The notes under the pieces were generated by a model, which had not been told where the DNA came from, ran no database searches, and saw only the letters and a program-made list of their open reading frames with translations. From Branchiostoma floridae (lineage: Eukaryota > Chordata > Leptocardii > Amphioxiformes > Branchiostomatidae), in NCBI RefSeq assembly GCF_000003815.2, contig NC_049979.1:12897560-12961559 (forward strand): a stretch of DNA of 64,000 nucleotides. The letters run 5' to 3'. The first letter of the stretch is position 1. Every line of letters begins with the position of its first letter. Below, piece by piece: positions 24,761 to 36,700 of the stretch. Both the position numbers and the translations under genes were made by a program.

Positions 24761-27700
24761 CTACGAAAAAGACATAGAGTCTAAATATGAGGATGAGTTA
24801 TGCTTCCCAGTAAACATTTTGCTAGCCTGGTTTCCAAACCCCAGCCCGATCTCAAGTATCTATCGTGCACAAAGGATATTTTTGAGGTTGGGGTATGGTA
24901 TCCAGGATAACATTTTGCATGAACAGCTTTGCAAATATAGATTCTCAAAGTACCGTTGGGTCTGCCAGAGGTAACTATGGTATGTTAGGAATACTATAAG
25001 AAATTATCTATGTCAGGCTGTAATTTTGGAAATATTGTATCAATTCTCGGTGAGTATTCAACAAACATTTGAAACATTCTGAGTATGTTGTCTTTGTACA
25101 TGTAGTAAACTGATGATCTTTGTGTGTTTACCTTAGGTTTGCACATGTTGAAGAGGAACTTCTCGGTGCCTATCTCCTGCTGCTGCTGCATGGGTCTGTC
25201 CACTGCCTGGTGCACCACCAACATGAAGTCCTGCTTACAGCCACCAAATGTCACCACAGACTTGTAGTTGTAGGTTACCAACAGGCGCTGGAGAAAAATG
25301 AAGCAGTCAGTACAACAGGACAACATCTTCAGTAAAAGTTAGGTTTTGCAGATGGAATGTGTGCAATTGCAAATTTCACAACAGTTGCCTTTGGTCACGC
25401 TGCCAGCAAATAATCAATCCTATGTGGTTTACCCTGGGACCAGCTATGATTTTTCTTAGTGGCTAATAACATCCAGTCATCCCTACACATCAAGCTGCTC
25501 TTCCTGAAAAAAATACCCACAGTATATACTTTGTTGGGCTAAGCTGGATACTGGCAGTGAGTTGGATTGTACTGGTACAGGATATTGATTGGGAAGGACC
25601 TGTAGTTGGGGTAGTCTGTGTAACAGAAATTTGGATGTTGAGCTGGCTGCTATAAGCGAGATTTAATCAGGCTACAATTGGGAGGGACCTGCCTGGAACT
25701 CAATAACCTGCATACAATCCTCAATACTGTAGTGACCAATGGGTAAATCTATTTACATATACTTGCTAACCACAAGGAGGATGGTACCCAGGCCAGGTTG
25801 CATCTGTGACTGCATATAAGTCTCCCTTGAGTCTTGACTGTCACCCAAAATACTACTGTTCAATCCAGTTACCCCAAAACTACTTCACTCTAGATTCCAA
25901 TTTCAATCAAGAACAGAATGCTAAAAAGTTACACTACAACACCACAACTGGACTCCCAGTCTACTGTTTAGTCAAATTAGTGGCGTTTCTGAGAAGGACC
26001 TCGTAGTTACCAATTACAGCCGCTGGTTCTTGGAAGAGCCATGCAACGCCATGTTATATATCAAGTTTAATCTGTTCAAATCTTATGTGATCAGAAGAGA
26101 TTCCATCTGATGAGAGGCCTGGGTAGCCCAACATTCCTGGCCAGTGATGACATTCTCTCCTCATAAAAGATTATTTAACTCTCCCCATGTGCACTTAGCC
26201 TCTTTTAGTATCCTGGTTTGAATCCCAGAATTTTTCTGGATAGGACAAACTGTGATAACAAAAGGCAGACAAAGACATTTTCTATAAGATATAGTTCCAG
26301 GGCCTCAGATGAAACACCAAGACTAAGGCACAATCTAGACACAGTTTTTCGCAATATCTGCGAGCCGACAACCTCTCGCCGACAGCTTTTTTTCAGTGTC
26401 TAGATGGAACTGCAATATCGCCATTAAGATATCGGCAAAATTTCTCCCGAAAGGTCCGAACCATTCGCCCGATAGCTTAGCAGGGGTCTCCTACAACTTC
26501 GGTAGGGCTCATTAGCATATAACACGGGCTCATTAGGCTATATAGCTGTTTATGACTGCAAGCGCCACGGGTGTCCCGCAGCCAACGTTCCAGATCCCTC
26601 CTGACATCTCCACAGATATCGGTAAAAACTGTGTCTAGATTGGGCCTAAGGTGAGGCTCCTAAATTATAGTAAATAATGCATCACAGATACAACATACCC
26701 TTGACCTGGGGACTGTGGGAAATGCAATAATTCCACGGAATATGTCGGGCCGAGATCAAAGGTAACCAACATTTTTACTAGCAATGTGTATCAAGTTTTG
26801 TTTGGTGCCACATGATGCCTCCCAGAGCGTCAGAGCCATAAAATGGCCAGATTTATTTCACGTGGTCAGCAGACTCAGCATAATTTCTTTAGCAACTAGG
26901 TTGTTCAATGCGGAGGTAGACAACCTGGGGATAGGAGGGGGAGCTTTTCTAACATGTCTGGAAATCAAGGTCAAATAACAATGGGCTGGGCCAGACAGCT
27001 GTAAATCAGGCCTGAGGCTCACATTTTGTGGTATGTTCCGGTGACCGCCCTATGTTCCGAAATCCCTATGTTCCGAAATCCCTATGTTCCGAAATCCCTA
27101 TATTCCGAAATCCCTATGTTCCGAAATCTCTATCGTCTATGGAAGTGTTCCAACAAACTAGTGTACCGACTGGCGTTGTGCAGCGACCATTGGGAGTCGA
27201 CCAAAGCTACATAAGTCCAGGCTGCGGACACACGGTCAGCAAAATAGGAAGTTGCGGCCTATATATTATATCACGGTACCTTCTTTAAATATTCTCCTTT
27301 TTGTGTTATTTGGGATGTCTTGAAATCTGTTAAAACTATAACACAACGAGCTTCAATGCGACTTGACTTTCGGCCCAGGTACGTGCCTGAAGTACGGTCT
27401 GACTCAACGACGTCGTAATAACCATAACGGGAGGGGGCCATACTTCGACACCCGTTCTAAGTGGATGCGCATGGCTTTTGTCAATGTACATTTTACAGTG
27501 AACTCATCAAAAACAAGTTAAGATCTTCTTTACATCCATATAACTGTTATTGAAGCTGTACAGATATATATTTCATTTGACAGTAGCGTTCCGCACTGTA
27601 CTTTGACAGCGCACGAAACTTACGGCAGGTTTTCGGCTTGCGTCCTAGCAGAACGTTCCAACACATAAAAGGGGTCCAAACTCCGACATAGTAACAACCA

Positions 27701-33700: not shown

Positions 33701-36700
33701 TTTGACCAGAACTAAGCTAACAGTGGTCCCCCGTATATAAATTCCAACTTTCATGTTGATATGCCAATCCGAGATGATATAAATCTAACTTCAAAAGTTA
33801 TAACTGACTGCCGTAGCGAACCGCGCGCCGTTTTGGGACAGTTCTACGTTCCATGACCCCCGGGTGTTGGGACCACTTGCAAGAAAGCTTGCTGCTTGAG
33901 TTTACAACTATCTATATTCATCATTTCATCGCATATACAACTTTAAAGCTTCTCACTTCACTCCTTTGTATTTTTAACAGATTTGTCTAGCTGTATCCAT
34001 TTGATTTTATAACCTGAAATCAGTTGATTTTAGTGCAATTTCCAACGCTTTTTTACCTCGTGACAGATTTGAAAACAAACGGAAAATTTAGTGCACAGAA
34101 TAGTCCGAATTCTCTTCTTTCAGTAGGTATATGGCATGCTATCCATTTCGCGGTAGTAATGGGCTTTTTTCCCAATCGCGCGAGGGCACCTCATCAAAGG
34201 CATTAAAAAAAGAACGCTTCCTCCCTTGCGTCAACGCCCGTTCTACGGAGCCCGCGCCAGACACGCACCGCCGTATTTGCGTCCTAATTGTCGTAAGACC
34301 AATGTAGCATTTGCTAATTCAGTCCGTCTCAACACTGTTTTATTCTATGTGCGTCCTCTGACAATACCGGAAATGTTCATCGGTACCGCAACTTGTGTTA
34401 AAAAGCCAGCTGTACTCGAATTAGCTACACCAACAACTTGCAGTATTTGCGCGTAAAACAGTCGATAAGGTGACCCCGATATACATGGACTTCCTAACCT
34501 TTCCAAATTTCAAACCAACAGGATCTTCACATGACTTGTAGTCGAAGATTCGACAAATCTAATTCACTAGTCATTAAAGATAGAATCGAGGGCGTAATGC
34601 AAATGCCCTCAATGTGAAATTCGTCGAAATTTTTGCCCCGTACGGCATCGCCATTTTGCTAATTTTACTATGTAACAAATATGACCATGAAACTAACTTT
34701 AATTGCCGTAAAATCCCACAAAAACCGTTTATGCAGAGAGCACATGGTGTTCCCTTCTTGTACATATAACGCAATCTTTGTAAAATGGCCGCCAAGTAGG
34801 TTTAAAAGAGCTGTTAAAGTCGGGTGAAATTTCATCCAACTGTCACGCGACAAGCCTTTCCTTAGCAACGACGTTGCTAAGAACTGCGGAACACTTCGAA
34901 CTGCAAATAAAAACGGTTCGATTCGTGTTCGATTCACTACGTGGCTTGGCGGCTGTACATATCTAAAAATAATTTTTAGTGTACATGCAAATATCGTATG
35001 TCATTTTCATGCATGAGTGTATCTTTTCATTTCCTCGTCAAGAATTGTATTGAAATTATGATGCTATCAAACTGGTACGAGGTTAGGTGCGTTACAAAAA
35101 TGACACATTTAAATGTTTGCCGATGGTGCGCGTTTAGGTTTGCCTAAACAAAAGTTTGCGGCTAAAATCTGCAATGGAGCTAACGTTAGTCCTCTGTTGT
35201 TATTATTATAGTTTTAACAGATTTCAAGACATCCCAAATAACACAAAAAGGAGAATATTTAAAGAAGGTAACGTGATATAATATATAGGCCGCTACTTCC
35301 TATTTTGCTGACTGCATGTCCGCAGCCTGGACTTATGTAGCTTTGGTCGACTCCCAATGGTCGCTGTACAACGCCAGTCGGTACACTAGTGTGTTGGAAC
35401 ACTTTCATAGACGATAGAGATTTCGGAACATAGGGATTTCGGAATATAGGGATTTCGGAACATAGAGATTTCGGAACATAGGGTTTTCGGAACATAGGGC
35501 GTTCACCGTCAACCCACACCTGTTACACAATATTGTACAATACAGGCTACAGAGCCCCCTCCAAGAAACCTATTGACTACATTCCCTCTTTCAACCTCCT
35601 TAATTTTATGAGTAGCCCCTTCAAACATGTGCCTTCTTCAAACCCTGCAACTCTGACTCTGACTCAGTCTGAGGTAAATCCACTCACAGTCACAACTGCC
35701 ATTGTCTTTTCATGTTTTTGGCATGCCAGCTCTGGGCAGTTCTGAACAGAACCTGAACTGGTCTGTATGTAAGTTGTCAGCACACATTTCACCTGCCTAG
35801 TAAACATTACATCAGCTTCATATCAGGCATCTTTCAGCCCAAGGGCAGCCTTCAAGGCCGGGTCTGAGTCATTATTTGGTGAACTTTGAAAAACAACAGT
35901 CAGACTCATCTTTCAACATAATGGAGCTTTGTAGGTCAGACTGGTCTGGTAACAGCTGATAACAATCTATGTCTCTCCATGTTTACCACTACTAGAAATA
36001 CATGCCATAATGTGATAATAAAGCAAAGGACTTACCAACAAGCTATATGTCATGATACCTACAGGTCCATACAAGAAGTAGTGTATTTTTATTGCCACCA
36101 GATTGAGTGGTAAGGTGAACGAGAATTGGGTTTTGATATTAAAGTTATCATTAAAAAAAAACTAGCTTTTATAAATGTAACATCTTTGCAGTTAATGCTG
36201 GGATATCTAATTGCAATATACTGTATGTATTATTCCATATTTACATGTAAACCCAGTAATCCACAAGAATCCTTTTTTTGTCAGTATGGTTAACACCTGA
36301 TACACACTTCTCTGCTTGAGTAACTTTCCTAGAAAAAGTTGACAGAACCCCAACTGTGATGAATGTGTTGATTTGTAAGGGAGAGGATTATATGACATGG
36401 GCACCTGCCCTCCAGCCACCAGTAGCCTTCAGCCTCTAGTGCTATGTCTTATTATCCTAACAGTCAAGCAAAGAAGACTAATTATGTGTGATTGCAGACA
36501 GAGATGATAACCCCAGATTTTCTATTGCTATTGTTGTCTGAAGGCTATCTCTAAAATCACCCATACCTACCAAGCTCCCCACACTAATATCCTCTTTTGT
36601 GTTGTGTCGCTTACCATAATAATACCATGTACACTCACAATTTCACACCTGCATCGAAATTTTGTCTATGCATAAAAGGCAATTACTAGTGGCAGAAACT

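Follow-up and report, generated by a model that had tools for sequence, protein, structure and literature searches.

A 64,000-nucleotide (nt) stretch of the genome of the Florida lancelet, Branchiostoma floridae (contig NC_049979.1, positions 12,897,560 to 12,961,559 of the forward strand; hereafter the window), carries two copies of a repeat whose ends are built from tandem 16-bp units that face each other. What kind of element do these copies represent, and what could have moved them? Our best reading is that they belong to a foldback-like passenger family of the Mutator class, closest in build to the Tm1 elements of nematodes (PMC3169594). The family as a whole probably consists of nonautonomous, cut-and-paste DNA transposons of the class of Mutator-like elements (MULEs), ordinarily ~1.05 kb long. 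Elements of this kind are known, and the family itself appears to be new as judged against the text of 5.39 million open-access papers, in which neither the 16-bp unit nor its rotations had a match. To this extent only, the result agrees with the preliminary description of the locus, which knew of no account of the unit in a chordate.

Array-ended copies in the window

Arrays were located by using Tandem Repeats Finder together with a search for units of CCCTATGTTCCGAAAT that allowed up to two mismatches, and the outcome was compared with shuffled sequence. The four arrays of the window hold 21 units, whereas 0.00 are expected from 100 shuffles. Two array-ended copies in opposite orientation are therefore present, as had been described. 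We call the two types of end A and B, and loci elsewhere in the genome are given L numbers. The features of the two copies are as follows.

27040..28542, plus strand: copy 1, 1503 bp, A end left and B end right
27040..27047, plus strand: A tip of copy 1, GGTGACCG
27048..27127, plus strand: A array of copy 1, five units of CCCTATGTTCCGAAAT
27128..27341, plus strand: A subterminal segment of copy 1; tip, array, and segment together are 99.3% identical to L020
27342..27424, no strand assigned: stretch of 76-83 bp in copy 1 that matches no other family member and for which no origin was found
27425..28350, no strand assigned: foreign repeat inside copy 1; positions 303-814 of the ordinary element are missing here
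28357..28470, plus strand: B subterminal segment of copy 1; positions 1318-1498 of copy 1 are 99.4% identical to positions 815-995 of L020
28471..28534, minus strand: B array of copy 1, four units
28535..28542, minus strand: B tip of copy 1, GGTTCAAG
32928..32936, plus strand: target duplication GTCAACCCA, left of copy 2
32937..35507, minus strand: copy 2, 2571 bp including a nested insertion, B end left and A end right
32937..32944, plus strand: B tip of copy 2, GGTTCAAG
32945..33056, plus strand: B array of copy 2, seven units
33057..33200, no strand assigned: B subterminal segment of copy 2, ending in TACA (one copy of the 4-bp duplication of the nested insertion)
33201..34955, no strand assigned: nested insertion in copy 2, with inverted ends CAGCCGC... 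and duplication TGTA/TACA
34956..35419, minus strand: A subterminal segment of copy 2; tip, array, and segment together are 95.7-96.0% identical to L012, L015, and L020
35420..35499, minus strand: A array of copy 2, five units
35500..35507, minus strand: A tip of copy 2, variant GGTGAACG
35508..35516, plus strand: target duplication GTCAACCCA, right of copy 2

The A ends of the two copies (left in copy 1, right in copy 2) are identical at 291 of 302 bp (96.4%) in inverted orientation, and the B ends have the tip, the array, and a short inner stretch in common. The preliminary description had the ends made of tandem units. The arrays do face each other, but every end also has an 8-bp tip outside the array, and the sequence of this tip differs between A and B. 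Likewise, the reported unit numbers of 4, 5, 5, and 7 are correct, but only the B ends differ (four units in copy 1, seven in copy 2); both A ends have five units, in register.

The perfect 9-bp repeats noted earlier around copy 2 were confirmed, with GTCAACCCA present exactly at both borders (32928-32936 and 35508-35516). Among random pairs of fixed boundaries in the window, a 9-bp border match arose in 2 of 400,000 cases, and it arose in 33 of 20,000 pairs when 10 bases of play were permitted on each side. Copy 1 has no target duplication: its flanks match at two of nine positions, and the longest word common to its 40-bp flanks is 5 bp.

A dispersed family with two distinct ends

The whole assembly (513,431,437 bases in 431 contigs) was searched for adjacent units. 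An exact two-unit pattern gave 64 matches, 32 on each strand, and a looser pattern gave 195 and 195 matches by strand. The reversed control gave 0 matches in the exact search, and the control for the looser pattern also gave 0. The two-unit patterns had no match in viral and prokaryote collections. We then read 9.5 kb of sequence at each of the 23 further loci that have an exact two-unit match. Both ends are present at 19 of these, and the remaining four (L011, L018, L019, and L028) have one end, with no partner in the ~15 kb beyond it; at L018 an assembly gap lies 120 bp inside the end. The 19 two-ended loci and the two window copies make up a set of 21 elements, and a set of 22 adds a sister element, L036. 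This sister, the one locus of its type that was read, is 899 bp long with related ends, exact CGTATTATC duplications, and the B tip GGTTACAT.

Each element has one A end and one B end, in both of which tandem 16-bp units lie inward of an 8-bp tip, and the copies are dispersed. Of the 21 elements, 14 have the A tip GGTGACCG, and four variants occur in the other seven (ACTGACCG in three, GGTGATCG in two, and GGCGACCG and GGTGAACG in one each). The B tip is GGTTCAAG in 20 elements and GGTTTAAG in one (L009). Counted without interruption from the tip, with up to four mismatches per unit, A arrays have 2-7 units (mean 5.05, standard deviation 0.90) and B arrays have 1-8 (mean 5.10, standard deviation 1.80). 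The longest uninterrupted array thus has eight units, or 128 bp; the B array of L009 has one unit, an interruption, and then 12 more (13 in all). Because unit number is more variable at B than at A, length change appears to occur mostly at the B end, where slippage or unequal exchange may shift the number of units.

Across 213 units, positions 8, 9, 12, and 13 are invariant and positions 10, 11, 14, and 16 have changed once or twice, compared with 32 changes each at positions 2 and 7 and 13 at position 15. The core TTCCGAA of the 16-bp unit is nearly invariant. This conservation is only suggestive of a binding site because the units are related by descent.

We also listed all genome matches to a tip plus its first unit with up to three mismatches. 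This search returned 48 A and 51 B tips, and the reversed-pattern controls gave 0. Scripted pairing yielded 23 facing A-B pairs, 789 to 2571 bp apart, of which the three longest are both window copies and L024. The reading covered 21 of these pairs, which are the elements of the set above, and left aside two pairs on contigs 6 and 9. Among the listed tips, B ends never face each other within 30 kb, and A ends do so once, in the two window copies. A genome search with the whole element found at least 146 pieces (40 of 95 candidates were scored). Seven pairs of elements compared over their full length are 96.9-99.5% identical. L016, L023, and L031 form a subgroup in which the A tip ACTGACCG is preceded by CCAAACA, and L016 and L023 are 99.5% identical with different flanks.

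Target duplications at the borders

Exact 9-bp duplications lie directly outside the tips in 10 of the 22 elements (L010, L012, L013, L015, L017, L020, L024, L027, L036, and copy 2). At least seven of nine flank positions match in 12 of the 22, including L009 (8/9, with the B tip placed at GGTTTAAG) and L029 (7/9). As a control, left flanks were paired with right flanks of other loci, and none of 462 such combinations reached 7/9. L021 has an exact 8-bp repeat that is displaced by one base, and no exact duplication is longer than 9 bp. The 9-bp duplication had been proposed as a trait of the family, and this holds for the 10 exact cases, although copy 1 itself has none.

These data bear on whether the arrays might simply be a dispersed minisatellite whose apparent elements are accidental pairs. 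Unit number does vary, and 25 A and 28 B tips have no partner within 30 kb. Some of these unpaired tips derive from related types with fewer units; among them are the sister type, in which CTCTATG follows the A tip, and a single-unit type, GGTTCAAT/GATTCAAT. At L037, the one locus of the single-unit type that was read, there is one end only within 3 kb. However, a minisatellite would not account for fixed tips, colinear subterminal sequence, 23 facing A-B pairs, and 9-bp duplications in 10 of 22 elements versus 0 of 462 controls. We therefore reject this explanation, whose probability we consider negligible; the genome-wide count and the border check that had been proposed earlier thus exclude a satellite.

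A second alternative is that the region from 27040 to 35507 is one composite 8.5-kb element bounded by two A ends. Its outer 302 bp are indeed the inverted copies described above, and they form the sole facing A-A pair. Yet copy 2 is flanked by a duplication of its own, the sequences outside the two A ends (GTATGTTCC and GTCAACCCA) are not the same, and the 4.4 kb between the copies has the low CpG content of host DNA (see below). Furthermore, L020 is a closer match (99.3%) to the A end of copy 1 than copy 2 is (96.4%). A composite element was rejected on these grounds as extremely improbable.

Evidence for a probable Mutator-class origin

The longest open reading frame of each of the 21 elements has 81-126 amino acids (aa), and that of L036 has 77. 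Because no frame exceeds 126 aa, the elements read cannot encode a full transposase in one frame. A search of the genome gave 27 matches to the MULE domain (PF10551), all above the cut-off. FLYWCH domains matched at 11 places, and a MULE match lies next to four of these. Two of the four, L038 and L039 (contigs 9 and 19), were picked because two alike matches let the ends be found, and they are the sole MULE loci read. The two elements span 3985 and 4242 bp, share 97.5-98.5% identity, and contain uninterrupted frames of 590 and 603 aa that each carry FLYWCH and MULE domains (Phantom-type). Like the array-ended family, both have unequal 8-bp tips (GGAAGCAG and GAATGTCG) outside inverted ends made of tandem repeats, and they are flanked by duplications of similar length, GTGTGTAGC (9 bp) and CAATGTCTTG (10 bp). 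They differ in the sequence of the tips, in their 22-23-bp units, in inverted ends that extend over ~350 bp (84% alike), and in encoding the FLYWCH-MULE transposase that marks Phantom, which the array-ended family members read do not carry. Upstream of the transposase frame, at 872-970 of L038, is a short Cys/His-rich frame that ends at a GTAAG splice-like site and looks PHD-finger-like by eye.

Every exact duplication of the family falls within the range of 8-11 bp given for MULEs (PMC6446971). A Mutator-class origin fits this length and also the similar build of L038 and L039, which sustains the "MULE-derived" part of the preliminary description. No autonomous relative that carries a transposase, such as that description proposed to look for, was found to share the ends, and no A-B pair is longer than 2.57 kb. 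Class membership is thus deduced from build and duplication length rather than proven.

Several observations count against the assignment. No family member that was read has a transposase, and the nearest of the 99 listed tips to any of the 27 MULE domains is 87 kb away. There is no DNA similarity between the FLYWCH-MULE elements and the array-ended family, and the likeness of the L038 unit to the family unit is within chance (42 of 300 shuffles are as good in one sense and 298 of 300 in the other). At the borders, 10 of 22 elements (copy 1, L014, L016, L021, L022, L023, L025, L026, L030, and L031) match at three or fewer of nine flank positions; these include all three members of the ACTGACCG subgroup, none of which has a duplication. 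L036 is not independent because its right border was placed by its repeat, and exact duplications number 9 of 21 without it. This assembly offers no empty site for copy 2. Finally, other superfamilies, such as Merlin, can yield 8-9-bp duplications. Regarding the counts themselves, L016 and L031, which share flanks, seem to be one insertion counted twice.

Might the transposase that moves this passenger element instead come from a different superfamily, such as Merlin or a P/Galileo-like type? P and hAT duplications are 7-8 bp, whereas all 10 exact cases here are exactly 9 bp, and the genome contains two FLYWCH-MULE elements of the same build. The alternative gains from the fact that no transposase is linked to the array-ended family, and from reports that foldback-like ends arose in several superfamilies, Galileo being P-type (PMC3688188, PMC3169594). 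On balance, we regard a source outside the Mutator class as unlikely.

Under the preferred Mutator-class reading, a MULE transposase encoded elsewhere would bind the repeated units in trans. The array would then act as a multi-site landing pad, in keeping with the repeated binding sites reported for Galileo, and the enzyme would cut at the GGT tips. A bolder and doubtful proposal is that Phantom-type MULEs have a conserved end design, in which unequal 8-bp tips are combined with transposase sites in tandem, and that this design extends from nematodes to chordates with all of the letters changed. The window family, L036, and L038/L039 would then be one design in three sequence versions. If this is true, then affinity would come from the array, and the element would owe its left and right to the difference between its tips.

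The resident MULEs are also relevant to a 2019 survey that found little sign of MULEs in chordates and asked whether they are excluded beyond shallow chordates (PMC6446971). For the Florida lancelet and the horse, from which MULEs had been reported earlier, that survey could not detect MULE transposases (PMC6446971). The 27 PF10551 matches and the open FLYWCH-MULE frames support the earlier report for the Florida lancelet and are at odds with the survey. Lancelets would therefore be a place to test both the reading of tandem-repeat transposon ends and MULE activity in a chordate.

Foreign DNA within the window copies

The sizes of 1.5 and 2.6 kb first assigned to the copies agree with the measured spans of 1503 and 2571 bp, but they do not represent the family. 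The ordinary element is ~1.05 kb, and foreign DNA has enlarged both window copies. With the 1.05-kb members L012, L015, and L020 as the reference, positions 1-302 and everything from 815 on are retained in copy 1 (~99% identical to L020), and positions 303-814 are absent. The place of the missing segment is taken by the 76-83 bp without a family match and ~926 bp of another repeat. This repeat (27425-28350) occurs in at least 39 other genome places at 95-99% identity, a lower bound from scoring 40 of 268 candidates; at two of those places, the bases with which it starts are seen again past its end in inverted orientation.

Copy 2 resembles L022, a short-type element, and contains in addition the insertion at 33201-34955, which has CAGCCGC inverted ends and TGTA duplications. 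Diverged direct repeats at 33255-33611 and 33837-34194 (360 bp, 59%) sit in this nested insertion, and an internal duplication belonging to the array-ended family was accordingly rejected. L024 contains another nested insertion (~791-1944, A to B) with GTGTGACAGCG-type inverted ends, at a CAGGCCGG site where copy 1 also breaks.

We also considered whether the interiors are captured host genes, and this was rejected: 20 stop-free pieces of both copies have no Pfam match over the cut-off. ARAGORN and Rfam, the latter at its gathering cut-off, gave no match in the window, and a stretch at 33176-33228 that looks tRNA-like by eye has no support from either. Weak Rfam matches in both copies are at chance level.

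CpG content and age of the insertions

The window copies have observed-to-expected CpG ratios of 1.17 and 1.23, compared with 0.30, 0.11, and 0.18 in the surrounding stretches; the 4.4 kb between the copies, at 0.11, resembles the host flanks. The best CpG segment around copy 2 (32902-35508) is nearly the element itself, and the one around copy 1 (26348-28525) reaches further left over a small inverted-repeat element. The latter is a separate 328-bp element-like pair (26323-26650) with 38-nt inverted arms that are 87% complementary and with intermediate CpG content. Of the 19 loci elsewhere, 17 (all but L024 and L026) have a higher ratio in the element than in either 1.5-kb flank.

High CpG content and 96.9-99.5% identity between elements fit either recent insertion or a lack of methylation. 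We favor the view that the family's insertions are young and may not yet have lost their CpG sites. Unmethylated sequence that the host uses, for example, in regulation, would also be CpG rich: the ratio is at least 1.01 in all 19 elements measured and 0.90-1.54 in 500-base steps across the copy 2 insertion, and 14 of 15 CpG sites are common to the two window A ends. However, the FLYWCH-MULE and sister elements also have ratios of ~0.99-1.25, as expected of other young transposons. Host use rather than youth is therefore quite improbable as the cause.

Other features of the window

An exon-like 27-aa frame with AG/GT borders (32282-32362, minus strand) sits between the two copies, and the copies may therefore lie in introns. 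This frame looks FERM-like; it has no PDB or Pfam match. A CpG-rich domain at ~11-23 kb includes a TIS11/ZFP36L-type frame with Tis11B_N and CCCH fingers (16962-17939, minus strand), which is consistent with an animal genome. A long frame at 55268-56239, gag-like by eye and without a Pfam match, lies in a CpG-rich island surrounded by CpG-poor DNA. Near the right edge is a fragment of a Mariner/Mos1-type HTH_48 transposase (63097-63420, minus strand).

Relation to known transposon systems

Drosophila Foldback (FB) elements, to which the family had also been likened, have long snap-back arms and an FB/NOF transposase. The family has the facing inverted ends of tandem repeats that characterize FB elements, but not their other marks: no frame exceeds 126 aa in the 21 elements. 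The term "foldback" applies loosely because uninterrupted arrays reach at most 128 bp, the tips are not mutually inverted, and the interior of copy 2 is mostly nested insertion. Sea urchin TU elements, which have an outer domain of short tandem repeats, heterogeneous middles, and an 8-bp duplication, are likened here by description only. A sea urchin foldback is cited in the work on Tetris (PMC4079207).

Tetris and Drosophila Foldback both have tandem repeats within inverted ends and variable middles, and Tetris has 8-10-bp duplications (PMC4079207). In contrast to the short arrays described here, Tetris has ~220-bp repeats and terminal inverted repeats (TIRs) of up to 1.7 kb (PMC4079207). Galileo provides a model for the arrays in its repeated transposase-binding sites inside the ends, but it has a P-superfamily transposase and long TIRs (PMC3688188). 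Rehavkus has a 9-bp duplication and a minisatellite near one end; it is set apart by description because this minisatellite precedes the 3' TIR only and its transposase has a PHD finger (PMC6446971).

Nearest in build is Tm1, a Mutator/Foldback element of Meloidogyne root-knot nematodes (PMC3169594). Tm1 differs in its tips (CGGTTAA/CCTACCC) and in carrying extra motifs B and D, and its motif C unit is not significantly like the family unit (172 of 500 shuffles are as good, and 447 of 500 on the other strand). Tm1 also has a member with a FLYWCH-MULE transposase (PMC3169594), whereas no autonomous member was found for the family. Some Tm1 copies lack duplications, which is ascribed in part to recombination (PMC3169594), and by analogy recombination may explain copy 1 too. 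Regardless of these differences, Tm1 has unequal 7-bp tips outside inverted ends of ~14-bp tandem units in variable number, 9-bp duplications, and many nonautonomous copies (PMC3169594), and in these respects it is the closest counterpart of the lancelet family.

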